Positions 8,516-64,000 of a DNA stretch of 64,000 nt are shown piece by piece. The notes beneath the pieces were generated by a model. That model searched no databases, was not told the DNA's origin, and saw only the letters and a program-made list of their open reading frames with translations. Source of the DNA: a bacterium (GTDB lineage: Bacteria; JAMCPX01); the NCBI GenBank assembly GCA_021787665.1, contig JAJYLN010000007.1, positions 15,133 to 79,132 of the forward strand. Direction: 5' to 3'. Made by a program: the position numbers and the translations under genes. Positions within the stretch are counted from its first letter, which is position 1; every line of letters starts with the position of its first letter.

Positions 8516-8963
8516 GCATTGCGGTCAAAAAATGGGTTACCCTCACCTTGGTGATTATGGGGGGGGCACGCCTCCTGTTCGTTCTCTAGCAACCTCATAG
8601 ACGAAGTAGGACAGGTAAGTTGCAGCCGTATGAAATATATTATTTATTGTCTTCTGAATCTTCTCTCATGCGCTTCAAGGCGTTGTTGAAGGCTTCACCT
8701 CCACGATCAAGCCATCAACATCCCTCGGCGTGCGTGACCTGACTGCATCCTTTCTTGCCTCACGAATCATACCATACCAAATGTTCTGTGTCAAAGGGCG
8801 AATCGAATCTGTGTTATCGCCAACCAGTCTTGACTTGAGCCTATGAAAAGGGTGGCTAAGACGGTAAAGCCCCCATAGACACCATGGCCATCTGTGAGAA
8901 GCATCGCATTGCCAAGGCTTTGGCTGAAAACATCACTATGAAGATCGAGCAGGTATGAGCTGG
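8516..8963. other. Intergenic gap, possibly gene relics
   Basis: About 450 bases between nuoA and the aminotransferase gene hold no convincing intact gene. A minus-strand frame at about 8791-8960 reads with protein-like character (segments DVFSQSLGNAML and VYGGFTVLATLFIGSS), and another short minus-strand stretch near 8640-8775 reads NNALKRMREDSEDNK after an apparent frame change. Both look like decayed coding sequence, but I cannot name their origin. Confidence 0.3.
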
Positions 8964-10151
8964 CTATTCGAGCATCATCACGGCCTGGTCTATCCTCTCG
9001 AGTCCTTTCTTGATCATCTCGAGCGATATGGCGTACGAGAGCCTGACATGCTCTTCCGCGCCGAACGGCGCGCCCGGCACGAGGGCCACCTTTGCCTGGT
9101 CGAGCAGGTAGTCCGCAAAGCCGAACGAGTCCTTGATGGCCTTTCCCTTGAACTTCTTCGTGTACAGGGCACTGACGTTCGGGAACGCATAGAACGCGCC
9201 CTTGGGCGTAATGCACCGTATGCCGTTTATCCTGTTCAACCCCTCGACGATGAACTTCCTTCTCCTGTCGAACTCCGTAACCATCTTCGATACGGATTCC
9301 TGCGGGCCGCTCAATGCCTCGACGCTTGCCTTCATCGCTATAGATGTCGGGTTGGACGTGCTCTGACTCTGGATGTTCTTCATGCCCTTTATGATGTCCT
9401 TGGGGCCGGCGGTGAAGCCAATCCTCCAGCCGGTCATCGCGTAGGTCTTCGACACGCCGTGCACGAGCAGGGTACGGGACTTCATGTCCTTCGCCTGGGC
9501 TATCGTGAAGAACTTCTCGCCGTCGTAGATAAGCTTCTCGTATATGTCGTCGGTGACAACGAACAGGTTGTGCTTGCGGACGACCTCTGCAATCTCTTCC
9601 AGGACCTTTCTGGGGTATACGGCGCCGGACGGGTTCCCGGGGCTGTTTATCAGGAGCATCTTGGTCTTCTTCGTGATGGCCTTCTCCACCGCGGCAGGAC
9701 CCAGCGCAAAATTGTCCTTCTCCGAGGTCTTCACGAAGACAGGCTTTCCGCCCGCAACGGCGAACATCTCGGGGTACGACACCCAGTAGGGCGTCGGGAT
9801 GATGACCTCATCGCCCGGGTCAATCATGGCGAGTGCTATGTTGAACAGGGCGTGCTTTGCGCCGACCGACACGATGATCTCGTCCCTGGCGTACTCGATG
9901 CCGTTGTCGCGCTTGAGCTTCAGTATAATAGCGTCCTTGAGCTCCGGTATGCCGTCAACCGGCATATACTTCGTAAAACCTTTGTTTATGGCATCTATCG
10001 CTGCCCGTTTTATATTGTCCGGCGTATCGAAATCCGGCTCGCCCGCTCCAAAGCCGACAACATCGACGCCCTGTGCCTTCAACTCTTTTGCCTTCGTATC
10101 GATCGCCAATGTGGCAGACGGCTTGATACCTCTGGCCCTCTCAGATAACAT
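8964..10151 (-). CDS. aspC: Aspartate aminotransferase (class I/II, PLP)
   Basis: Pyridoxal-phosphate transaminase interconverting aspartate and oxaloacetate using 2-oxoglutarate/glutamate, cytosolic. The 395-residue protein has the class I fold signatures: GFGAGEPDFDTPDNI near the N-terminus, NSPGNPSGAVYP in the middle, the PLP-binding Lys235 in GVSKTYAMTGWRIGF, and the C-terminal substrate Arg region EEHVRLSYAIS. It is closest to the subgroup Ib enzymes common in bacteria other than enterics. GGAGG precedes the ATG at 10151. It is read in the same direction as coaD, 63 bases away. Substrate choice among aspartate, aromatic or prephenate cannot be settled by reading. Confidence 0.9.
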   Translation of the reverse strand: MLSERARGIKPSATLAIDTKAKELKAQGVDVVGFGAGEPDFDTPDNIKRAAIDAINKGFTKYMPVDGIPELKDAIILKLKRDNGIEYARDEIIVSVGAKHALFNIALAMIDPGDEVIIPTPYWVSYPEMFAVAGGKPVFVKTSEKDNFALGPAAVEKAITKKTKMLLINSPGNPSGAVYPRKVLEEIAEVVRKHNLFVVTDDIYEKLIYDGEKFFTIAQAKDMKSRTLLVHGVSKTYAMTGWRIGFTAGPKDIIKGMKNIQSQSTSNPTSIAMKASVEALSGPQESVSKMVTEFDRRRKFIVEGLNRINGIRCITPKGAFYAFPNVSALYTKKFKGKAIKDSFGFADYLLDQAKVALVPGAPFGAEEHVRLSYAISLEMIKKGLERIDQAVMMLE

Positions 10152-53165: not shown

Positions 53166-53456
53166 ATGGTATCAAACACCAAAAGCGTGACCGTTCAGGA
53201 CATCGAGAGAAGGGTCAGCGAGATATTTATCAATGAGCTCAAGCTCGAGGATGTGACCCCGGAGACGTTGGACACGGAACTACATCTTATGGAAGAACTG
53301 GGAATAGACAGCATGGACCTCATAACCGTGGTACTGGTACTGAAGGACGAATTCTCCGTCAGCATAGAAGAGGCGGATTACCCCAAACTGACCAATATCC
53401 GGCTCATAGCCGAGTACATCAAGGAGAAAATGGAACATGGAAGAAGTGCGGCCTGA
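53166..53456 (+). CDS. Acyl carrier protein 1
   Basis: 96-residue four-helix carrier. The phosphopantetheine site is Ser49 in LGIDSMDL. First gene of the seven-gene operon; the last 20 bases overlap the second carrier. It is longer than housekeeping AcpP because of an N-terminal extension, and the acidic helix II resembles carriers of arylpolyene and other type II systems. The holo form would carry the growing chain. Confidence 0.93.
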   Translation: MVSNTKSVTVQDIERRVSEIFINELKLEDVTPETLDTELHLMEELGIDSMDLITVVLVLKDEFSVSIEEADYPKLTNIRLIAEYIKEKMEHGRSAA

Positions 53457-53769
53457 AAAAGCCTCAATCGGAAAATCATCGAACGGGAAAGCGTCGATCG
53501 GATCATCACCAATCGAAAAATTGATCGATGAGCTGAAAAAAAAGGTCCTCGATATCCTCAATATCCAGGACGTGAGTCTCAGTGATATAGACAGCAACGC
53601 ACCGATGGTGGGGAACGAGCTCGGCATAGATTCCATCGACATTCTGGAACTGGTCACCGTCATCGAGCAGGATTATGGCGTGAGGATCGACAACAAAGAG
53701 TTGGGCCGGAAGGTGTTTGCCTCATTTACTTCTCTCGCACAATATATAGCTGACCACAGAACCAGTTGA
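53437..53769 (+). CDS. Acyl carrier protein 2
   Basis: 110 residues with Ser66 in LGIDSIDIL as carrier site. The first 28 residues are a low-complexity linker of Lys, Ala, Ser, Ile and Gly in imperfect repeats (KASIGKSSNGKASIGSS), which is unusual for a free-standing carrier and suggests an unfolded tether. Overlaps carrier 1 by 20 bases and the ketosynthase by three or lies 11 bases before its ATG. Confidence 0.92.
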   Translation: MEEVRPEKASIGKSSNGKASIGSSPIEKLIDELKKKVLDILNIQDVSLSDIDSNAPMVGNELGIDSIDILELVTVIEQDYGVRIDNKELGRKVFASFTSLAQYIADHRTS

Positions 53770-53780
53770 ATGTGCCTGTA

Positions 53781-55970
53781 ATGTCGTCTGAAGGCATTTT
53801 CATCACGGGCCTCGGCATCATCAGTCCTCTGGGGAGAGGACTCCCTTCGACGATCCATGCGCTAAAAAATCCGGTTTCGGGTATCCACAGCGCCGACCTT
53901 TTCAACGTTGCCGTCGATCAGATCATGCCGGTGGCCGATGTCACGGTACCGTTTCCGACCGAGCCCGGCGTCCCGAGGACGCATGCATTGGCGCTCGTTG
54001 CGGCACGCGATGCGATGGAAGGTCGAAAAGCCCCTCCGGATGCTATCGTTATCGGGGTCACCACCGGGGGCATGCCGAAGAGCGAGCAATTGCTCGGCTC
54101 GAAGATCGTGTCGCCGCAGGAATATGTGTACCATGGGGCCGGGACCGTGGCGACATACCTCGCAGAGCACGTATCGTGTACCGGACCGGCCTTCACCCTA
54201 TCGACCGCGTGTTCAAGCGGTACCGCGGCCATCAAGATCGCCCTGGAGATGCTCAGGCGGGGAAAGGCAAAGAGCGTGCTCGTCGGAGGAGCAGATGCGT
54301 TGTGCAGGTTTACCTACTTTGGCTTTTTCTCGCTCCAGCTCATAGACCCCAAGGGCGCACGGCCTCTCGACAGGGACAGAGCCGGCATATCACTCGGCGA
54401 AGGAGCGGCAATGCTCCTGCTCGAGAGTGCACCGACGCCCCCCCAGGGCTCCATCGCTCAGATCCTGGGCGGTGGCATCTCCTGCGATGCGTACCATCCG
54501 ACAGCACCGCATCCGAAAGGAGAAGGTGCCCTGAAGGCCATGCAGGACGCCATAGCAGACGCGGGCATCCGGGCAGTTGATATCGGCTATATAAACCTTC
54601 ACGGCACGGCAACACTGGACAATGACGCGTCCGAAGCAACAGCACTCAGGACATTGTATCTCGACCGTATCCCCTCGGTGTCATCCACCAAAGGGATGAC
54701 CGGCCATTCGCTCGGTGCAGCAGGCGCGGTCGAATGCGCGATAAGTGCATTGTCCGTTTCCGAGGAACTGATCCCGGCCAATACCGGGTGCGTGAACCCG
54801 GACGCTTCACTGGGGCTGCCCGTCGTATTGAAACCGGAAAGCCGTCCTGTGAAGATTGCACTGTCGAACTCCTTCGGCTTCGGCGGCAATAATGCTGCCG
54901 TGGTGATCGGTTCCGTGGACCTACCGGTGCCGGTCCGTCAGAGGACATGCCCCATGAGCCTGCAGGTCACGGGTCTTGCCTGCCTGACCGGCAGCGGTGG
55001 CACGGATGACTCTTTCCAGAAATTCTCACAGGGCGTTCATGTTACCGGCGTCCTGAGCGATGAGGAGGTCTCAAAGGACCTGCCCCAGCGTCAGGTACGC
55101 CGCCTCAAGAGGACCTCCCGCATGGCACTCGCCCTGGCCACGGCGGCACGCAAGGACGCCGGAGGAAGTGATTGTCCGTCCTCGGTCTTCTTCGGGACAG
55201 GATGGGGCCCCCTGACCGAGACATACGATTTCCTTACCAAGCTCTTCGGGTCCGATATGAAATTTTCCAGTCCTACGGACTTCATCAATTCCGTGCACAA
55301 TGCACCCGCAGGACAGGTCGCCATGGAGCTCAAGGCACACGGCGCCAATATCACGGCAACAGGCGGCGATTATTCCTTCGAGCAGGCCCTGTTTATTGCG
55401 AGCCTCCTGACGTCCGAAAAAGATAATCTGCTCCTCCTCGGCGCGGACGAGATGCATCCGGAACTGTCTCTTCTGTTCGATCCATCGTCGGCAGGCGACA
55501 CCACCCCTTCGGACGGCGGCGGCGCGATTATGGCGGTGGCGACAGACTCCCCGGAAGGTCCTGCGATCACGCCGGTCGCGTACCGGATGGCGCCGGGGAA
55601 TACCGGCTCTGCACCCATGATTGACCCCGGGATCATAAAAGATATCGACAGGCGTTATGGCGCGCTCTTTGTCGGAATCCCCCTTGCATACGAAGTGGCG
55701 GCAAGGGCCCAGGTAAAAAGTTTCCTTACGTACTCCAAGTTCAGCGGGCCTGTAGTCGATTACAGAAAGTACACGGGACAGTATGCTACGTCCGCCGCCG
55801 TTGCGACCGTCCTTGCTGTGAAAGCGATCAAACGGGGATCCCTTCCCGCGATCCTGACCGGTAAACAAGAAGTTTCCCTCAGCGGGAAAGGCATCCTGGT
55901 CATGGGCTTCGGTCCTTATTGTACTGCTATCGATGTCCGTAACCATAACCGAGGTGTGCATGCCCCCTGA
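53781..55970 (+). CDS. Ketosynthase fused to chain-length-factor-like domain
   Basis: 729 residues from the ATG at 53781 (a TTG at 53766 overlapping the ACP2 stop is the alternative). The N-terminal half (about 5-400) is a complete FabF-type condensing enzyme with Cys144 (TACSSGTA), His274 (LHGTATLDND) and His309 (GMTGHSLGAAGA). The C-terminal half (about 405-640) follows the pattern of the second ketoacyl-synthase family (PF13723) of aryl-polyene clusters, with RRLKRTSRMALALA and FINSVHNAPAGQ, but lacks a catalytic Cys. In known systems these are two proteins forming a heterodimer; here they are one chain. It would set chain length of a polyketide or fatty acyl product. Confidence 0.85.
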   Translation: MSSEGIFITGLGIISPLGRGLPSTIHALKNPVSGIHSADLFNVAVDQIMPVADVTVPFPTEPGVPRTHALALVAARDAMEGRKAPPDAIVIGVTTGGMPKSEQLLGSKIVSPQEYVYHGAGTVATYLAEHVSCTGPAFTLSTACSSGTAAIKIALEMLRRGKAKSVLVGGADALCRFTYFGFFSLQLIDPKGARPLDRDRAGISLGEGAAMLLLESAPTPPQGSIAQILGGGISCDAYHPTAPHPKGEGALKAMQDAIADAGIRAVDIGYINLHGTATLDNDASEATALRTLYLDRIPSVSSTKGMTGHSLGAAGAVECAISALSVSEELIPANTGCVNPDASLGLPVVLKPESRPVKIALSNSFGFGGNNAAVVIGSVDLPVPVRQRTCPMSLQVTGLACLTGSGGTDDSFQKFSQGVHVTGVLSDEEVSKDLPQRQVRRLKRTSRMALALATAARKDAGGSDCPSSVFFGTGWGPLTETYDFLTKLFGSDMKFSSPTDFINSVHNAPAGQVAMELKAHGANITATGGDYSFEQALFIASLLTSEKDNLLLLGADEMHPELSLLFDPSSAGDTTPSDGGGAIMAVATDSPEGPAITPVAYRMAPGNTGSAPMIDPGIIKDIDRRYGALFVGIPLAYEVAARAQVKSFLTYSKFSGPVVDYRKYTGQYATSAAVATVLAVKAIKRGSLPAILTGKQEVSLSGKGILVMGFGPYCTAIDVRNHNRGVHAP

Positions 55971-57435
55971 AGATCCTATAGTCATTATAGGTTCCGGTAT
56001 CGGCGGCCTGACCGCTGCTATCATCCTCGCAAAGCTGGGCCATCGTGTGACTGTTGTGGAAAAGAACAAGCTGCCCGGCGGCCTGATGAGGAGCTATACC
56101 AGAAAGGGGATCGAATGCGAAGTAGGGATCCACTACATGGGCGCCCTAGACAAGGGTCAGCCTTTGCGCCAGATCTTCGACTTTATCGGGGTATCCGATC
56201 GTATACCCCTCACGCGCATGGGCGAAGACGGGGTCGTCGATAAATACATCCTGCCCGGGATGGAGTTCGATTTCCCCGCGAGCATCGATCGATACGGAGA
56301 GAACCTCCGTGAGGCCTTTCCGGATGAGGGCCGTCAAATAGCCGCAATTATCGCTGTTCTTCACGATGCGATCGGCCGGTTCGACAGCATGTCTATATTT
56401 TTGAAGGGGGAAACAAATTTCGACTTTGCCCGGGAACTGCGGCCCGCGGGCGATTATTTCAATGAACTGGGATGCTCCCTGGGGCTGCGCAGCATCCTGA
56501 GTGTTCCCCTGTCATTGATCGGCGTAGGACCCGATGAATGCCCCGTATATCTATGGAGTTCCTCGGTCTCTTCCTATCTGATGTCCTCGTGGAGGCTGAC
56601 ACGCGGGGGCGCACATATGGCGGATACCTTCGCAGAGAGGCTGCGTGAGCTCGGTGGAGAAATCATCTGCAATGACGGGGTATCGAAGATCCTCGTACAG
56701 AACCGCGCTGTCCGTGGCGTAGCCTTGAAGTCCGGAAGGGAGCTTGTCTCTCCCACGATCATATCGGCCATCCATCCAAAGCTGATGCTCGGTCTGCTAT
56801 CCGACGATTCTTATAAGCCTTCCTTTAAAAACAGGATCCTATCTCTCCAGGAAACGCCCGGGATTTTCGCAACCCATGTAGCGGTCCCCGAAGATGAGCT
56901 TCCTTTAAGGCCGTACAATATCTTCATCCTGAACGAGGCCGCGGACAAGTACGAGGTAGTGACATTTCTTAACATGAAGAAATCACCCGAACCCGGCTGG
57001 AACACACTGTCCATCCTGGGAGGGAGCCCGTACGAGCAATGGCGCACATGGGAGCACACGACGAGAGGGCAGCGACCCCGTGAATACAAAGAGGCGAAGG
57101 CCCGCGAGGCCGCTGTTCTCTTTGATAGGGCCCTAAAGCTTTTCGGGCCCCTCCACCGGGCACGGGTCGTAGACTCCTTTACGCCCCTGTCGTTTGTAGA
57201 CTGGATGGGGAGTCCGGAAGGTGGCGCCTATGGCGTACGCCGATCGACGACACAGAAGTTCAAGACCGCTGCACTGCACCGTACGCCGCTAACAGGGCTG
57301 CATGCAGTCGGGCAGAGCGTCTTCGCCCCGGGCATACTGGGTACGGCGCTGGGGACCCTGCGGGTACTCGCCCCTCTGGTGGGATATGAAACGCTCCGTC
57401 AGAAATTTATTGACTCAGGTATAGAAGGAATTTAA
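55960..57435 (+). CDS. FAD-dependent oxidoreductase, phytoene desaturase (CrtI)-like
   Basis: 491 residues from the ATG at 55960, with GAGGTG six bases upstream; an upstream ATG at 55933 is less likely. The Rossmann motif IIGSGIGGLTAAIILAKLG at the N-terminus, the KLPGGLMRSY segment and the C-terminal GLHAVGQSVFAPGILGTALG identify the CrtI/carotenoid isomerase group. Such enzymes desaturate or isomerise polyenes; the one here stands among ketosynthase genes, as in ladderane-type clusters. Overlaps the ketosynthase stop by 11 bases. Confidence 0.82.
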   Translation: MPPEDPIVIIGSGIGGLTAAIILAKLGHRVTVVEKNKLPGGLMRSYTRKGIECEVGIHYMGALDKGQPLRQIFDFIGVSDRIPLTRMGEDGVVDKYILPGMEFDFPASIDRYGENLREAFPDEGRQIAAIIAVLHDAIGRFDSMSIFLKGETNFDFARELRPAGDYFNELGCSLGLRSILSVPLSLIGVGPDECPVYLWSSSVSSYLMSSWRLTRGGAHMADTFAERLRELGGEIICNDGVSKILVQNRAVRGVALKSGRELVSPTIISAIHPKLMLGLLSDDSYKPSFKNRILSLQETPGIFATHVAVPEDELPLRPYNIFILNEAADKYEVVTFLNMKKSPEPGWNTLSILGGSPYEQWRTWEHTTRGQRPREYKEAKAREAAVLFDRALKLFGPLHRARVVDSFTPLSFVDWMGSPEGGAYGVRRSTTQKFKTAALHRTPLTGLHAVGQSVFAPGILGTALGTLRVLAPLVGYETLRQKFIDSGIEGI

Positions 57436-57452
57436 AAGATGAAAGGATTGTC

Positions 57453-59006
57453 ATGACGAAGAAACATACACGAAACACGTCGTCACAAAAGCCGGTTGTC
57501 ATAGGAGAAGGCGATCTTACGCCGGCGCAGGTCGTCGCCATCGCCCGTGGCAAGGAGAGGGTACGCATCAGCACGAACAAGGACTTTACCGGCAGGATGA
57601 AGCGGTCGCAAAAGATACTCCAGCACGCGCTCGACGCCGGCGAGCCGGTTTATGGAGTAACCACCGGGTACGGAGCTGCGTGTGGCAATAGGATCCAGAA
57701 GCATAAAACCGAGGAACTCGGGAGCAACCTCATCAAGTACCACGGATGCGGCACCGGTGAGCCGTTGGGCGTAGAAGAGGTGCGTGCGTCCCTGATGTGC
57801 AGGCTCGCGTGCTTCGCACAGGGACATTCCGGGGTGTCCGTCAACCTGCTGCAAGCCCTTGCGGACTTCCTCAACAAAGGCATAACACCGGTCGTACCTT
57901 CCCTCGGCTCTGTCGGCGCATCCGGGGACCTCACCCCTATGTCATACATCGCCGCCTGCCTGTCCGGAGACAGGGAGGTCCTGTATAAAGGACGGCGAAT
58001 GCACTCCCGGAACGCTCTGTCTCTGGCAGGCCTGTCTCCCTACCGCTTTCTTCCGAAAGAGCCGCTCGGCATGATGAATGGAACTTCCGTTATGACCGGG
58101 ATCGCGGCCCTTGTTCTGGACAAAAGTAGGGTCATAGCAGATGCTGCACTCGCAGCTACGGCACTCTCGCTCCATGCCATCATAGGACACGAGCGGCACT
58201 TCCATTCGGCGGTGGTCAACTCGAAGCCCCATCCCGGACAGCACAGCACCGGCGAGCGGCTGCGGGGCCTTCTGGCCTGCGTGGACTGTCCTCCGGAATC
58301 CGGCAGGGAAAATGATCTGCAAGACCCTTATTCCACACGCTGCGCCCCGCAGATCCTCGGCGTCGTGTACGATGCCTTCGAATGGATCGGGCAATGGGTC
58401 CACCGGGAGATAAACAGCTCCAACGACAATCCGCTGTCCGACGGCGACAACGAAGAGGTCTTCATGGGCGGCAATTTTTACGGCGGTCACATAGCATACG
58501 CCATGGACGCCCTGAAGAGCGCGCTGGCATCGGTCGCAGACATGGCTGACCGACAGATGGCCCTGCTGGTCGATCCCCGGTACAACCGGGGTCTCCCGGC
58601 AAACCTCGTGAAGGTGAAGGGTGACAAACAGCCCCTGCACCACGGGTTCAAGGGTATGCAGATCACCGCCTCGGCACTTACGGCAGAAGCCCTGAAGAAC
58701 ACCATGCCCGCGGCATCGTTCTCCAGATCAACCGAGTCCCATAACCAGGACAAGGTGAGCATGGGCACGATCGCCGCACGGGACGCTTCGCGGCAATGCG
58801 ACCTCGTCAGCAGGGCTGTGGCCATCCATCTCATGGCAGCGGTCCAGGCATGCGAGCTGCGCGGTAATCTGGACAGGAGACCTGCACTGGCGTCCCTGGT
58901 AAAAGAGGTCAGAAAGGTGGTAAAGGAGACGGTCTTCGACCGCCCCATGGACAGGGACATCGAGGCCCTCGTAGGCGCGCTGCCGGACGTGGTACGATCC
59001 GTATGA
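57453..59006 (+). CDS. Histidine/aromatic amino acid ammonia-lyase (MIO enzyme)
   Basis: 517 residues. The cyclising triad Ala156-Ser157-Gly158 (SVGASGDLTPMSYIAA) makes the MIO electrophile. Other family features: YGVTTGYGAACGNRI, and NSSNDNPL near residue 325. The selectivity pair, at residues 96-97 in NLIKYHGCG, is Tyr-His; known histidine lyases have Ser-His, tyrosine lyases His-Leu and phenylalanine lyases Phe-Leu, so the substrate is open. Similar lyases supply the aryl starter of aryl polyenes and flexirubins. AAGGA lies before the ATG; the stop overlaps the thioesterase start by four bases. Confidence 0.88.
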   Translation: MTKKHTRNTSSQKPVVIGEGDLTPAQVVAIARGKERVRISTNKDFTGRMKRSQKILQHALDAGEPVYGVTTGYGAACGNRIQKHKTEELGSNLIKYHGCGTGEPLGVEEVRASLMCRLACFAQGHSGVSVNLLQALADFLNKGITPVVPSLGSVGASGDLTPMSYIAACLSGDREVLYKGRRMHSRNALSLAGLSPYRFLPKEPLGMMNGTSVMTGIAALVLDKSRVIADAALAATALSLHAIIGHERHFHSAVVNSKPHPGQHSTGERLRGLLACVDCPPESGRENDLQDPYSTRCAPQILGVVYDAFEWIGQWVHREINSSNDNPLSDGDNEEVFMGGNFYGGHIAYAMDALKSALASVADMADRQMALLVDPRYNRGLPANLVKVKGDKQPLHHGFKGMQITASALTAEALKNTMPAASFSRSTESHNQDKVSMGTIAARDASRQCDLVSRAVAIHLMAAVQACELRGNLDRRPALASLVKEVRKVVKETVFDRPMDRDIEALVGALPDVVRSV

Positions 59007-59428
59007 CAGATAAGGCTATACGGTCATTCTCGGTCAGACTTAGAGTGCCGTTCTACCATGTCGACCCGATGCAGGTCGTATGGCACGGCAATTACTTCAA
59101 ATACTTTGAAGCGGCAAGGGACGCCTTGCTGGAAAGCGTCGGCATCGACCTCGAGAGCTTTTATACCTCCCATAAATACGTATTCCCGGTAGTACGCGGC
59201 TCGGTAAAATTCATCCATCCCCTCCGCTACAAGGACGTATTCCTTTGCACGGCAAAGGTCATGGAAATCAGACGGAAGATCGTGATCGGATACGATATCA
59301 AACTGGCGTCAACTAACACCCTCTGTACAACGGGCAGCACGGAGCAGGTCGTCCTCAAGATGCCGGAGGCCGAGATCGAGTTCAAGGTCCCGGAAGAAAT
59401 ACTCAGGGCAATAGGGCACAGTCCATGA
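59003..59428 (+). CDS. Acyl-CoA/ACP thioesterase, 4HBT hot-dog family
   Basis: 141 residues of the YbgC/FcbC type. The catalytic region reads YHVDPMQVVWHGNYFKYFEAARDALL, with the conserved Asp-Pro-Met/Gly helix start, followed by VRGSVKFIHPLRYKD in place of the usual beta strand. It would release the product from ACP or CoA. Overlaps both neighbours by four bases, so it is clearly part of the operon. Confidence 0.9.
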   Translation: MTDKAIRSFSVRLRVPFYHVDPMQVVWHGNYFKYFEAARDALLESVGIDLESFYTSHKYVFPVVRGSVKFIHPLRYKDVFLCTAKVMEIRRKIVIGYDIKLASTNTLCTTGSTEQVVLKMPEAEIEFKVPEEILRAIGHSP

Positions 59429-61152
59429 AGGGAGACTTTTTCGACGCGCTGCGCGCAGGCGCCGAGAGGGTCGCGGTCTGGGCCGACCTCCTGGACAGGA
59501 TAAACGTATTCCCGGTAGCGGACGGGGACACCGGGCGCAACCTGCTGATCAGCCTCCTGCCCCTGAAGTCCTCCGAACGCGATCGTTCCGCACTCATCGA
59601 AAAGCTCTTTTTGTCGGCGCGCGGAAACTCCGGAAATATTGCCGCACAGTTCTTTACGGGATTCCTTTCCTGCGAAAATGAGGCGAAGTTCCCGAAACTC
59701 CATGACGCTGTTCATAGGGGTACAAAACAGGCATGGCAGGCAGTTGCCAATCCCCGTCCCGGTACCATACTCAGCGTCTTCGACGATCTGGAAAGCTCGC
59801 TGAAGCATGTCCCTATGGACGATCAAGGGGAATGGGTGTCCGTCGTTTTGAAAAAACTGGAAGGCACGGTCCTGAAAACGGCACGTATCTTGCCGGTCCT
59901 TCAAAATGCAAACGTCGTCGATGCCGGGGCACTGGGCATATTCATTTTTTTCGATGCTTTTCTGCATGCCCTGTATCTGAGAGGTCCGCAATTCGCGCCC
60001 CTGTCCGCCACGTTCAAGGAACACCTCTCGGTCAGGGAGGCATGGGAAGCAGACGTGGAAACCGGGTCGTGCGTCGACGCCGTGGTCAGATTGAAAGAGG
60101 GAGGGAAAAAGGTCATGGAGGACCTGTCCCTGTCCGGCAACAGCGTGGTCGCCCGGGAGAACGGGGATTGCATCAAGATCCATATCCATACCGGTGACCA
60201 GTCGGCCATCCGCGATGCGCTTTCCCGCGGAGGCAGCATTATCCAATGGGCATCCGATGACCTTTCCGCACAGACCAGGGCGTTCTCCTTCCGGCCCCTC
60301 CATCAGGCAGTCCATATCATGACCGATGCAGCGGGAAGCATAACACGCGACAACGCCAGACATCTCGGCATGACCGTTCTGGACAGCTACATCGCCATCG
60401 GGACCAAAGACCTACCCGAGACATACGTCGATACTGCCGACATGTACACCGCCATGGCTCAGGGGATCAGGGTTACCACGTCCCAGGCGTCCGTGTTTGA
60501 GCGTTATCAGCACTACGAGAAGATACTGGGCCTGTACAACACGGCCCTCTACCTGTGCGTCGGCTCTGTTTATACCGGAAATTACCATGCAGTCATGGAC
60601 TGGAAAAGCGCACATGACCCTGAGGACCGGCTGAAGGTCATCGACACCGGGGCCGCTTCCGGTAAACTGGGACTCATCGCCATAGCAACCGCAGAACATG
60701 CCGCAACCACAACAACGGCAAAAGAGGTTTCGGACTTTGCCCTGCATGCCGTGGCAGCGTGCGAAGAATATATCTTTCTGGACACGCTCCATTTTCTGGC
60801 CATGGGCGGACGCCTGTCGAAGACCAGCGCGGTCTTCGGCGACATGCTGCATCTGAAGCCGGTGGTCAGCCCGGCCCCGGAAGGCGCCAAAAAGGTGGCA
60901 GTCCTGCGAAACAGAAAGGACCAGGTCGCCTTTGCCATGGAAAAGCTTGAGAATACTATCCACAGCGATGCTCATCCGATCATCATGATAGAGTATACGG
61001 ACAATAAGGAATGGACAGAAAGCGGCATCGCGGCCACGGTAAGGAAGAGTTTCCCGTACGCCGAGATCATCCTACAGCCTTTCTCCCTTACGACAGGCGC
61101 ACACACCGGCCCCGGCACATGGGGCATTGCCTTCCTGCCCTCCGGCTCATAA
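59425..61152 (+). CDS. DhaL (DAK2)-DegV fusion, putative fatty acid kinase
   Basis: 575 residues joining two halves of the FakAB system. N-terminus (about 1-190): DhaL/FakA kinase fold with the metal site NVFPVADGDTGRN and SARGNSGNIAAQF. Middle (about 205-285): FakA-like domain with KIHIHTGDQSAIRDAL. C-terminus (about 293-575): DegV/FakB acyl-binding fold with MTDAAGSITRDNARHLG and VTTSQASVFERYQHYEK. In Gram-positives FakA phosphorylates a fatty acid held by FakB to acyl phosphate for phospholipid synthesis. Fused kinases of this type are uncharacterised to my knowledge. Last gene of the operon. Confidence 0.85.
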   Translation: MKGDFFDALRAGAERVAVWADLLDRINVFPVADGDTGRNLLISLLPLKSSERDRSALIEKLFLSARGNSGNIAAQFFTGFLSCENEAKFPKLHDAVHRGTKQAWQAVANPRPGTILSVFDDLESSLKHVPMDDQGEWVSVVLKKLEGTVLKTARILPVLQNANVVDAGALGIFIFFDAFLHALYLRGPQFAPLSATFKEHLSVREAWEADVETGSCVDAVVRLKEGGKKVMEDLSLSGNSVVARENGDCIKIHIHTGDQSAIRDALSRGGSIIQWASDDLSAQTRAFSFRPLHQAVHIMTDAAGSITRDNARHLGMTVLDSYIAIGTKDLPETYVDTADMYTAMAQGIRVTTSQASVFERYQHYEKILGLYNTALYLCVGSVYTGNYHAVMDWKSAHDPEDRLKVIDTGAASGKLGLIAIATAEHAATTTTAKEVSDFALHAVAACEEYIFLDTLHFLAMGGRLSKTSAVFGDMLHLKPVVSPAPEGAKKVAVLRNRKDQVAFAMEKLENTIHSDAHPIIMIEYTDNKEWTESGIAATVRKSFPYAEIILQPFSLTTGAHTGPGTWGIAFLPSGS

Positions 61153-61189
61153 CGCAAAGGACATTCTCTCGAAAATCTCCCGACCCAAG

Positions 61190-61250
61190 CTTCGCTCGGG
61201 TACCCCGACCCCTTTTGTAAAGGAAGGACAGGAGGAATTTGGTTTCTCCT
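61190..61250. repeat. Weak copy of the intergenic CCCTTT/GGAATTT element
   Basis: After the operon, an imperfect hairpin CCCGA-n-TCGGG (61180-61201) is followed by CCCCTTTTGTAAAGG and AGGAGGAATTT, resembling the repeat at 32290-32400. It has no T tract; it may still reduce read-through. Confidence 0.35.
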
Positions 61251-61380
61251 GTCGATACCATTATGGACTTACTAATACGTGGGGCTCTCAGCGGCCTGCA
61301 AAAGCTCTTTTTTGATCTCGGCCCTGAGCCACGCAGGCTCGATTACCTTGGATCGCACCGGTCGCTTTTTGTAGCATTTT

Positions 61381-61644
61381 TCAACCAATTTTATACCAAT
61401 TTTCGTAATACTCCCTTGCCGACATTCCGCCCAGTCTCTCATGAGGACATACCGTGTTATAGTCCTCGATCCAGCCGGACATTTTGGCGCGTACGTCTTC
61501 AAAGCTCGCGCACAGGTTCTGGTTAACATAATCCGCCCGTATCCACCGATTCATAGATTCAGATACCCCGTTACTCTCAGGACTCCGTACCGGCGTATTG
61601 CATACCTTTAATACCTCGTCTAACCATTCTTCCTTAATGGCCAT
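61381..61644 (-). mobile_element. Chimeric insertion sequence remnant (IS3-like integrase 3' part behind an IS256-like start)
   Basis: An 87-codon frame. About residues 19-83 are the C-terminal part of an rve-type integrase, with TPVRSPESNGVSES, NRWIRADYVN and CPHERLGGMSAREYYENWY. The first 16 residues (MAIKEEWLDEVLK) match an IS256-type transposase start and lie just inside an IS256-like end (next entry), so two different elements have been joined by deletion. It cannot make a working transposase. A further minus-strand frame at about 61272-61390 may be additional degraded transposase. Confidence 0.6.
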
Positions 61645-61671
61645 GCTTTCCTCCTATATTTTTTCATCATA

Positions 61672-61710
61672 TAAGATGACGGCCATTTACACACTTTATC
61701 TGACAGACCC
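61672..61710 (-). mobile_element. IS256-like terminal inverted repeat
   Basis: Read on the minus strand from 61710 it begins GGGTCTGTCAGATAAAGTGT and continues GTAAATGGCC, the typical end of IS256-family elements such as those found with MAIKEE-type transposases. The other end is not found, so this is a remnant; it truncates nothing visible but sits five bases after a methylase relic. Confidence 0.6.
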
Positions 61711-61715
61711 GAGTT

Positions 61716-62057
61716 TTATGTTTTTTGCATGATAAAGAGATACTTGAACCCTCGTAGGTAAAAATTAAACTCTCTTGCCCTTCCATGCCAGATACCCGTA
61801 TTGGAGGTTTGATTCCTTCTGATGACACAGATAACATCGACTGGGCTAAACTATTGACTCAACATATCATACACTCTGAACCCGACTGGTATATATCCTG
61901 TTTTCTTCCTCCAATGATCTCCGATTAACCATGCCATGTATTTGCCTGGTTTTAACATTCTGTGTATTTCTTGTACAACTTTTTCTAATTCTATAAAAAA
62001 CTTTTCTTCCGTACATGGGATCTTGCCGATACACTGCGGATGATCAGAATAATTCAC
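61716..62057 (-). pseudogene. C-terminal relic of a second DNA methylase
   Basis: Read on the minus strand from 62057 the frame gives RMLKPGKYMAWLIGDHW and GYIPVGFRVYDMLSQ, then an in-frame TAG, then VDVICVIRRNQTSNTGIWH and FNFYLRGFKYLFIMQKT before a TAA at 61716-61718. This is the C-terminal third of an N4/N6 adenine/cytosine-type DNA methylase (RvLKPG and GDh regions). It lacks the catalytic and SAM motifs at its 5' side, where the restriction gene relic is fused to it. Confidence 0.7.
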
Positions 62058-62466
62058 ATTATTACAGCTACGATGGTATAGGTCTGCGGCTTATAGATTA
62101 TTATATCTACATCAGGGAGGTGCGAACCAAATTCGCCATAATCTATAAGCAGATTTCTTTTTACACTACCAAGTTCTCTGGAAAGAGTATTGCTATTGGT
62201 TCGCTCCAATGAATTGCCATCAATAATGCTCAAACCAATACGTTCGACTTCATCTTTGATTATGCGCAAAACAAGCTTTTCGAGATTTTTTCCTTTAAAC
62301 GCACGCCACGACTGTTCATGATCTCTGTTTGGAGTTGGATTTTTTGACCAATCATCTTTATGTATTTTTTTGCCTCTTTGAGAAGTTCAGAAACATGCCT
62401 ATACGTTTTTGTACCCTATGTTTCCTTCTTTTTCTCATAGAGTTTCAACAAGTCCTCGAAAGTCAT
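62058..62466 (-). pseudogene. Frameshifted 5' part of a type II restriction endonuclease gene
   Basis: Starts with an ATG overlapping the methyltransferase stop by four bases (MTFEDLLKLYEKKKET), then meets an in-frame TAG. After a one-base shift in a run of seven A at about 62365-62371 the reading frame shows KNPTPNRDHEQSWRAFKGKN and LLIDYGEFGSHLPDVDIIIY, the latter with the PD-x(n) start of the restriction active site. It ends abruptly at TYTIVAVI, where a second methylase relic begins. Thus the gene is dead in two places and truncated. Confidence 0.7.
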
Positions 62467-63839
62467 ATTTTCTTCCCAATCACAATATACTCTGTCGGGT
62501 AAGCATGGAAATCTTCCTCGCCATTCTTCGCGAATCTTCCTGTCTCAGCGTCCCTCTTCTGCGGTAGTATCTTTAAAGGGATTTCTCTCTTAATGATTCT
62601 ATCTATCGTCAGCCCCGCATACTGCATGCTCTCTGCAAAGACCTCCGCATTCAAAATCTCGACTTTCTTCAAGGTCGTGTTCCCGATGACGTAGCAGCAT
62701 CTGCCGCCATGACGCAATATCCTGTAGGTCTCATCGAAGCACTCCTGCATATCGATAAAGAACGCCTGAATCTCCTCCGACATGGACCTGTCCTTCTCCG
62801 CCATTCGATGCGTTATCGATTGCCCGATCTTGCTCTTGAGCTGCCTCACCTCGTCGTGCCTGTACGATGTGCCTATGAATTCTGTCCGGTACCCCGACAG
62901 GTCCGGCGTATACTCAAGCCACAGGGTACTGAGCTGGTGAAGGTCTGCATACTCGTAGCTCGTCACATAAGGGCTTGATGTTATCTGGATGTCGACGGTG
63001 CCGTCCTCCACAGGCTGCCTTCTGGCGTCCCCTCGCGTGATGTTTAAAAATCTGCCGATATCAGCCTTGACCCTCTCCGGCACGACGTCCCAGAATGCAC
63101 GATTCCCCCGGCTCATCTTATGTATATGCCTCTTAAAGGCGGTCATAGGCCGCTGCGGATTTTTGTTTGAATCCCTTGTTGGCTTTGTGCTCCCCATGAG
63201 CCATATCGAAACCGTCTTCAGGATATGGCTGAAGCATACCTTCAGGAAATTTCTGACCGTGATGTCGGTCTCTTCGTTGATCCTGGCAAGTATTACCCCG
63301 AGTTCATTCTTTATCTCTGGCTTAAACCAATAATTGATCCTCTCGATGTTCGTTTCCGGTATATAGGGCTTCATTGAGAGATGCGAAAAAAGGGTGCTTG
63401 AATCGGATTCCAGAAAATTCAGATCGATGAGAAACGCCTCGACCCTTTTTTGTAAATATTCGGGATCGATAGGCGTACTCTTGACCCTTGTAATGAGCTC
63501 CGAAATATAATTTATGTCGGTCCCGCTCGCCCTGTATCCCCTGCTTATGGCACAGGTGATCGTTGTCCCGCTGCCCATAAAGAGGTCGTTGACATGGGGC
63601 TCGTCTATACCTATCACATACTCATCCATGAGCTTTTCTACCAGTTGTGGGACAAATTTTGCCGGGTATCTGTGATAACCGTGTGTAAGCTTGGAAGTGT
63701 CTCCTGGAGTGTACTCGCTGAATGACCAATCTGAGTCTACAGATAGTGAATGAAACAGGTCTATGATTTCTGCGGATGTATAGCAGTTTTCTTTCTTATT
63801 ATTTTGTCCGATCCCGTGTATTGGTGAAATAGCCTTCAT
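62463..63839 (-). CDS. Site-specific DNA methyltransferase (intact)
   Basis: 458 residues. Motif order puts the SAM-binding GYHRYPAKFVPQLVEKLM and DLFMGSGTTITCAIS (motif I/FxGxG) before the catalytic motif QITSSPYVTSYEYADL; the usual SPPY appears as SSPY, a conservative change. It methylates an exocyclic amine (m4C or m6A) in a short site. The 3' end overlaps the restriction gene relic by four bases, so it was the M gene of a type II system. Now it would act as an orphan or protective methylase. The 5' region is AT-richer than the core genome. Confidence 0.88.
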   Translation of the reverse strand: MKAISPIHGIGQNNKKENCYTSAEIIDLFHSLSVDSDWSFSEYTPGDTSKLTHGYHRYPAKFVPQLVEKLMDEYVIGIDEPHVNDLFMGSGTTITCAISRGYRASGTDINYISELITRVKSTPIDPEYLQKRVEAFLIDLNFLESDSSTLFSHLSMKPYIPETNIERINYWFKPEIKNELGVILARINEETDITVRNFLKVCFSHILKTVSIWLMGSTKPTRDSNKNPQRPMTAFKRHIHKMSRGNRAFWDVVPERVKADIGRFLNITRGDARRQPVEDGTVDIQITSSPYVTSYEYADLHQLSTLWLEYTPDLSGYRTEFIGTSYRHDEVRQLKSKIGQSITHRMAEKDRSMSEEIQAFFIDMQECFDETYRILRHGGRCCYVIGNTTLKKVEILNAEVFAESMQYAGLTIDRIIKREIPLKILPQKRDAETGRFAKNGEEDFHAYPTEYIVIGKKI

Positions 63840-63887
63840 ACTTATTTGTCCCTATACAAGCCCAATCCTTGCTTCCGGATTTCCAAG

Positions 63888-63933
63888 CCAAAGTGACCTC
63901 ATTTAGGGATTTAATTCACTATTAGCACAGTGG
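63888..63933 (+). repeat. 46-base direct repeat, right copy
   Basis: Right copy of the 52981-53026 repeat; eight mismatches, none in the last 17 bases. It lies in the divergent gap between the methyltransferase and the next gene. Separation of the copies is 10.9 kb. Confidence 0.65.
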
Positions 63934-63983
63934 ATTAAAAAGGGACAGGAAAAATAGTATATAATCGAAAAGGAGGTTACCAT

Positions 63984-64000
63984 TGGAAATGAGTATGGAT
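63984..64000 (+). CDS. Start of a further gene, cut by the window end
   Basis: AGGAGG at 63971-63976 stands seven bases before a TTG at 63984 that opens a frame reading MEMSMD up to the window edge; ATG codons at 63989 and 63995 are alternatives. Product unknown. The repeat at 63888-63933 lies 50 bases upstream. Confidence 0.5.

Follow-up and report, generated by a model that had tools for sequence, protein, structure and literature searches.

We propose that seven genes in the window (the whole 64,000-nucleotide stretch analyzed, contig C20:15133-79132 of the 2.25-Mb draft genome G000) form an operon encoding the elongation steps and the start and finish core of an aryl polyene (APE) lipid pathway, which would be split over three loci and in which a fused fatty-acid kinase would make an acyl phosphate for a glycerolipid. 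We regard this proposal as likely overall. That the operon is the core of an APE-type pathway is highly probable, and a role for the kinase in lipid attachment is evenly balanced between yes and no. Aryl polyenes are pigments of the membrane whose starting material is an aromatic amino acid. Gene content, conserved gene order, intact active sites, APE homology and the association of the kinase with the pathway are read directly from sequence. Profile searches of the translations recovered, on one strand at 53166-61152, the seven families that an earlier note on this DNA had named:

53166..53456, + strand: acyl carrier protein 1 (ACP1), 96 amino acids (aa); PF00550 (E = 1.2e-7) and NCBIfam PRK08172/PRK09184 matches, with the phosphopantetheine Ser within LGIDSMDL
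53437..53769, + strand: ACP2, 110 aa, APE-type (PRK09184); NF006617 at 70.6 bits (cut-off 70)
53766..55970, + strand: ketosynthase (KS)-chain length factor (CLF) fusion of the ApeO-ApeC type; PF00109, PF02801 and PF13723
55933..57435, + strand: CrtI/CrtD-like flavin adenine dinucleotide (FAD) oxidoreductase, 500 aa; PF13450 and PF01593
57453..59006, + strand: aromatic amino acid ammonia-lyase dependent on 4-methylideneimidazole-5-one (MIO), 517 aa; PF00221 (E = 6e-157)
59003..59428, + strand: YbgC-like hot-dog thioesterase (TE), 141 aa, ApeK-like in position and family; PF03061 (E = 4e-10) and PF13279
59425..61152, + strand: fused fatty-acid kinase, Dak2 (FakA_N)-FakA_M-DegV (FakB); PF02734, PF21645 and PF02645

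The closest known systems are the APE clusters of Acinetobacter baumannii and Pseudoalteromonas and the ape clusters of Escherichia coli CFT073 and Xenorhabdus doucetiae (PMC8253772, PMC8358021). Common to these and to G000 are two ACPs, an ApeO/ApeC-type KS and CLF, a ketoreductase (KR), ApeP/ApeI-like dehydratases, an ApeR-like KS, an ApeH-like ligase, a lysophospholipid acyltransferase (LPLAT), a family 2 glycosyltransferase (GT2) plus acyltransferase, LolA, a resistance-nodulation-division (RND) transporter and a DUF3261-like lipoprotein; the Acinetobacter and Pseudoalteromonas clusters also share a lyase followed directly by a hot-dog TE. The earlier note described the combination as unfamiliar; that it is unknown as a whole is not supported, as lyase, TE, two ACPs and KS/CLF are the make-up of the A. 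baumannii and Pseudoalteromonas clusters. Unlike in known APE clusters, the KS and CLF of the window are fused, the genes of G000 lie at three loci, the operon has an extra fused kinase and CrtI-like oxidoreductase, radical S-adenosylmethionine (SAM) genes accompany the pathway genes, and the carriers are Desulfobacterota and the window's own lineage. Most other parts are known, and what is new relative to those clusters is the fused fatty-acid kinase, which almost always travels with the pathway.

Among the PDB sequence matches, the best for the KS half include the ApeO ketosynthases 6qsp_A and 7f28_B, and those for the CLF half include 9s5h_C and 6qsp_B (ApeC-type). The KS catalytic residues Cys149, His279 and His314 are intact and the second half has no active-site Cys, so the label of KS-CLF fusion is right. 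The AlphaFold model (predicted local distance difference test [pLDDT] 88.7, predicted template modeling score [pTM] 0.92) aligns end to end with the fused KS-CLF of PfaC from polyunsaturated fatty acid synthases (6riw; template modeling [TM] score by query, TMq, 0.82), and together with the catalytic residues this upholds the fusion assigned in the earlier note. PfaC, which likewise has KS and CLF in one chain, is the best full-length fold match, but identity is only 16%, and the window protein stands alone and is closer in sequence to ApeO/ApeC. A recent KS/CLF-like structure, PDB 9s5h, matches both halves of the fusion. Of the carrier proteins, ACP1 is 55-64% identical to ACPs beside distant KS-CLFs, and ACP2 is 35% identical to ACPa of the Acinetobacter and Pseudoalteromonas APE clusters (E = 1e-14 to 8e-16).

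The lyase retains the MIO triad ASG at 156-158, Tyr67 and the conserved Asn, Tyr and Arg residues, and the Asp/HGNY region of the TE is conserved. In tblastn searches of annotated plasmid records, the closest named relatives of the lyase (43-47% identity) came from Caballeronia, Burkholderia, Acinetobacter and Pseudoalteromonas, and in both annotated cases opened (Acinetobacter and Pseudoalteromonas) the lyase was part of a complete APE cluster, with an acyl-CoA thioesterase as the next gene. Compared with the neighboring lyase and TE of annotated APE clusters, the window lyase is 44-45% and the TE 30-32% identical, the TE that adjoins the lyase in A. baumannii matching at 32% (E = 5e-19). Phylogenetically, the lyases of the window, of Desulfobacterota and of APE clusters form one clade (support 0.99) against the histidases. 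This clade and the ApeO/ApeC matches of the KS/CLF support the aryl-polyene-type pathway first suggested from the gene content.

The lyase could instead be a histidase of histidine catabolism, placed in a lipid operon by coincidence, a reading that we consider extremely improbable. The NCBIfam hutH model scores 426 bits, nearly equal to the best family, but lies below its cut-off of 539. The motif-2 residue, which is Gln in tyrosine and phenylalanine ammonia-lyases (TAL/PAL) and Glu in histidine ammonia-lyases (HAL; PMC3992019), is Gln432 in the window and Gln in all clade members, whereas it is Glu in all Desulfobacterota histidases compared. The motif-1 selectivity pair is Tyr96-His97 (Tyr-His or Phe-His across the clade, the same in APE-cluster lyases), not the Ser-His of the histidases compared. 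No urocanase was found in the nine carrier genomes searched. Gln432, the lack of urocanase and the separate clade led us to reject the histidase reading, and with it the true histidase in a Hut context against which the earlier note had cautioned. The flexirubin pathway (FlxA TAL, FlxY 4-coumarate-CoA ligase; PMC3992019) offers a likeness in that there, too, the arylacrylic starter for an aryl polyene comes from an ammonia-lyase. FlxA, a proven TAL, combines a HAL-like motif 1 with a TAL/PAL-like motif 2 (PMC3992019), and the window lyase shares its motif-2 Gln and HAL-like motif-1 His; at 314 bits against a cut-off of 700 for the FlxA model, however, it falls outside FlxA-type TAL. No dialkylresorcinol (DarA/DarB) genes were seen in the operon or at the pathway loci on contig C22, although no search was aimed at them. 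The substrate of the lyase would be Tyr or Phe, with Tyr more likely.

The kinase joins Dak2, FakA middle and DegV domains in a single chain. By motif position, its N27/D33/D35/N68 and C216/H253/H255 match the catalytic residues of FakA (Asn32/Asp38/Asp40/Asn82 and Cys240/His282/His284; PMC9136124) and, judged over 16-34 orthologues, are invariant or nearly so; the Thr/Ser/Arg/His motifs of DegV (FakB) are also conserved (TTSQAS, GSVYTGNY, GGR and GAHTGPG). The model folds as FakA_N plus FakB1, with the DegV half superposing on fatty-acid-binding FakB1/DegV (TM by target, ~0.8 to 0.87). The window kinase is thus like FakAB (PMC9136124) in its FakA_N and FakA_L catalytic residues, FakB motifs and folds, but it is one chain, its linkage is with a pathway of pigment type and not with fatty-acid uptake, and a DegV/FakB domain stands in place of FakA_C, a domain that in Staphylococcus aureus resembles FakB and also binds it. 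With FakB in the place of FakA_C and the catalytic residues conserved, the kinase is expected to produce acyl phosphates with a long acid as its substrate. That this acid would be an aryl polyene is suggested by gene linkage, by the coupling of TE and kinase and by a PlsY homologue in the clusters (PF02660, E = 5e-31 in locus L026), found in the extended clusters of genomes G145, G146 and G148; G000 has one PlsY, on a contig other than that of the operon. The acyl-phosphate idea is the new part of our proposal, and the comparative data make it plausible. Searched against viral contigs, the kinase had no match, and a literature search for DegV or fatty-acid kinases with polyene clusters gave nothing relevant among open-licence papers.

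Nine genomes of the window's family were surveyed, including G001 (84% complete) and G002 (92% complete). The seven-gene order, whole or cut by a contig end, was found in seven of them: in full in G000, G007 (L023), G008 (L030) and G004, where the contig stops within the last gene, and truncated by contig ends in G003 (L031, where the contig stops inside KS-CLF), G005 and G006 (L024). G001 and G002 gave no operon match. Because the order is kept in related species at 61-84% protein identity, the operon is not a chance effect. The earlier note had proposed a gene-neighborhood check, and the genes do stay together in several genomes; an order unique to this genome, which the note had named as a counterargument, is contradicted by these seven genomes and by a looser version across Desulfobacterota.

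Beyond the family, the KS-CLF fusion recurs in Desulfobacterota, including metagenome-assembled genomes of Desulfobacteraceae, at 42-53% identity. Of 395 Desulfobacterota genomes, 20 carried KS-CLF (E <= 1e-100) and 30 the fused kinase (E <= 1e-60); the two occurred together in 19 (Fisher P = 9e-24, uncorrected for shared ancestry), mostly at a distance of 5-12 kb. The lyase clade (54-63% identity) was present in 13 genomes, all of which carry the kinase, and the gap between lyase and kinase was 82-542 bases in 11 of the 13 pairs; the next lyases beyond the clade were one at 46% and histidase-like ones at 33-39%. Lyase and kinase lie side by side without a fused KS-CLF in seven genomes, and the four of these that were read have the order B12-radical-SAM/lyase/TE/kinase/GT/RND. 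A recurrent mini-cluster of B12-radical-SAM, lyase, TE, kinase, GT2, RND and LpxL-like genes, lacking the fusion, was seen at L158-L161 (G184, G402, G499 and G463). In L159, L160 and L161, two separate KS-like genes are found close to this mini-cluster. KS-CLF occurs without the lyase clade in 14 genomes, 13 of which carry the kinase. In G145, G146 and G154, the TE adjoins the kinase though the lyase is elsewhere.

An alternative hypothesis is that the Dak2-DegV kinase phosphorylates coumarate or cinnamate, so that the ACP is loaded from an acyl phosphate instead of an adenylate and the operon needs no ligase. The window operon is indeed without a ligase, and lyase, TE and kinase are contiguous in the window's family and in G148, G500, G286, G184, G402, G463 and G499. 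However, an ApeH-like ligase is present in the genome, and in many lyase-less clusters it lies directly upstream of the kinase (six loci: L151, L152, L162, L163, L168 and L169). In the model, the DegV half has the fold of a long-chain acid carrier, and 13 surveyed genomes carry KS-CLF and kinase but not the lyase clade. We therefore consider starter activation distinctly unlikely.

The other pathway genes lie on contig C22. At ~13.1 to 27.5 kb are a GT2, an RND transporter, an LpxL-like acyltransferase, two B12-radical-SAM proteins, a polysaccharide deacetylase, a KR, LolA, a DUF3261-like lipoprotein (20.4 bits, just below the cut-off of 22.3), an ApeR-like KS and an LPLAT. A second locus at ~61 to 73.6 kb carries radical-SAM proteins, two more KSs, a polyketide synthase dehydratase (PS-DH) fused to a phosphopantetheinyl transferase and, at ~71 to 73.6 kb, an ApeH-like ligase, an ApeP-like dehydratase and a second dehydratase. 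Gene-by-gene BLAST of G000 against annotated APE clusters gave counterparts for nearly every APE function, among them the KR (52% to APE KR, E = 6e-89), the ApeR-like KS (44-45% to APE KS2, E = 4e-124), the AMP-binding ApeH-like ligase (34% to ApeH, E = 5e-34) and the ApeP-like dehydratase (E = 1e-14). The ligase would act in the pathway of the operon. In G148, nearly all pathway genes are in one locus (L029, L047 and L054). The earlier note found KR, dehydratase and ligase absent from the operon and supposed that they were borrowed from housekeeping fatty acid synthesis or lay elsewhere; they do lie elsewhere, and with pathway-type copies on C22 the borrowing was rejected. No enoyl reductase was found at the loci seen (the operon and the C22 loci). 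The RND/MMPL transporter (C22:13063-~17100, L051) has a C-terminal SAM-methyltransferase domain at residues 852-994 and resembles ApeM fused to an ApeB-type methyltransferase; its homologues elsewhere are of similar length (~1020 to 1040 aa). The fusion of a polyketide-type dehydratase with a 4'-phosphopantetheinyl transferase (L071:12126-13667, C22 ~69.1 to 70.7 kb; PF14765 and PF01648) adjoins tandem radical-SAM genes and two KSs, and proteins of like length occur in G148, G193, G002 and G003.

These C22 genes also bear on whether the pathway is of a ladderane or polyunsaturated-hydrocarbon type, in which the CrtI-like enzyme, radical-SAM proteins and KSs would make non-aryl polyunsaturated chains and the lyase would supply something else. 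Tandem radical-SAM genes occur at the second C22 locus and in related clusters, together with extra KSs, a ligase and a CrtI-like gene. The ladderane-candidate clusters of Kuenenia and the Desulfotalea cluster (PMC2649909, PMC4790861) are listed with CrtI-like, tandem radical-SAM, extra KS, FabG/FabZ, ligase and glycosyltransferase genes, a likeness drawn from the gene lists in those papers rather than from sequence comparison. Yet the window operon matches APE genes best, and the Desulfotalea product consists of acyclic polyunsaturated chains, not ladderanes; a ladderane-type pathway is thus quite improbable. Phytoene-desaturase-like proteins of Kuenenia showed no phytoene desaturation (PMC4790861). 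The window's CrtI-like protein scores 91 bits against NCBIfam CrtD, far below the cut-off of 550. Its orthologues directly follow KS-CLF in the window's family, L028, L029, L164 and G193 (44-49% identity in L028, L029 and L164). That it is the usual FAD enzyme of APE clusters was rejected, as the alignment of the two is confined to 33 residues of the Rossmann-type FAD motif. Our guess is that it desaturates or cis-trans isomerises the polyene.

Taken together, we envisage that deamination of an aromatic amino acid by the lyase (Tyr more probably than Phe) yields coumarate or cinnamate, and that the ApeH-like ligase from C22 probably loads this arylacrylic starter onto an ACP. Chain extension to a conjugated polyene, with no enoyl reduction step, would then fall to KS-CLF with the two ACPs, the KR, the second KS and the ApeP/ApeI-like dehydratases; double bonds would probably be added or isomerised by the CrtI-like enzyme. 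The TE would release the polyene acid, which the fused FakA-FakB kinase would convert to an acyl phosphate. PlsY-type or dedicated acyltransferases could put this acyl phosphate on a glycerolipid, and the RND/LolA/LolB-like set could export the polyene glycerolipid. What we infer in this scheme is which substrates are used, that the kinase takes part and at which point, what the CrtI-like enzyme does, and the lipid anchor.

Several observations weigh against the scheme. Known APE clusters have no such kinase, yet their product is attached. The dehydratases and ligase adjoin radical-SAM genes at a separate C22 locus and may serve another pathway, and in some KS-CLF clusters the ligase, not the TE, adjoins the kinase. 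ApeK, the TE homologue, gave no hydrolysis in vitro, and a proofreading role was proposed for it (PMC8253772); G000 has no strong Dak2/DegV match besides this kinase, which could thus serve general fatty-acid uptake. The last two points also favor a salvage role off the main path, in which the TE edits misprimed or stalled ACPs and the kinase reactivates the acids set free or serves the uptake of external fatty acids; FakAB in Gram-positive bacteria is a scavenging system (PMC12594616, PMC10146087). The near-perfect co-occurrence with KS-CLF and the short distance to it exceed the needs of general scavenging, however, and we consider salvage unlikely.

A broader and more tentative hypothesis, which we hold to be somewhat less probable than its converse, is that Desulfobacterota and the window's lineage have a dedicated acyl-phosphate branch, attaching aryl polyene acids to glycerolipids via a one-chain FakA-FakB kinase and PlsY-type transfer, and that their clusters have radical-SAM, CrtI-like and KS genes in common with those that are ladderane candidates. 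If true, aryl polyenes would have a route of attachment to lipids that has not been described for them. The anchoring molecule of aryl polyenes in E. coli has been described as not yet identified (PMC8253772), and a kinase predicted to make acyl phosphates that tracks KS-CLF in 19 of 20 Desulfobacterota genomes would give a direct, testable anchoring answer for this branch. The range of aryl polyenes, so far mainly pathogens and symbionts among Gram-negative bacteria, would also grow to take in sulfate-reducer-type lineages and that of the window, and the puzzling ladderane-like gene clusters would gain a fresh lead.

The gene junctions agree in part with the overlaps of 3-20 bases described in the earlier note. 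ACP1 and ACP2 overlap by 20 bases, and lyase/TE and TE/kinase by 4 bases each; CrtI/lyase has a 17-base gap, and KS/CrtI overlap by 38 bases (start 55933) or 11 bases (start 55960), the latter start being probable from relatives. ACP2/KS overlap by 4 bases from a TTG start or are separated by 11 bases from ATG 53781. Relatives start at the equivalent of MSSEGIFITG, so ATG 53781 is probably the true start, which would leave no overlap with ACP2. A Shine-Dalgarno GAGGAG lies 5' of ACP1, and no sigma-70 promoter match was found upstream of that gene. Two features follow the operon:

61196..61208, + strand: weak intrinsic-terminator-like hairpin 3' of the operon, from a consensus scan only
61381..61644, - strand: transposase/integrase remnant (rve_3); PF13683 (E = 1e-14)

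The consensus scan found three terminator-like hairpins in the 800-base stretch scanned, against 0.6 expected. The integrase remnant occupies the place of the relatives' LPLAT, which follows the kinase in L030 and G005 and lies on C22 in G000. Most family assemblies break inside or beside the operon (window 61152-64000, G003:C74, G004:C1, G005:C60 and G006:C38), and it may be that this locus is mobile or repeated, or that it varies within the population. Beside the remnant, at the contig end, a DNA N4/N6 methylase-like protein (window 62463-63839, - strand; PF01555) is possibly part of a restriction-modification or mobile element. Upstream of the window, two near-identical transposase-like open reading frames (MARPLRILYAGAFYHVTARGNEKKTIFKHDADY...) lie at C20:4689-4997 and 8729-9472 (L053).

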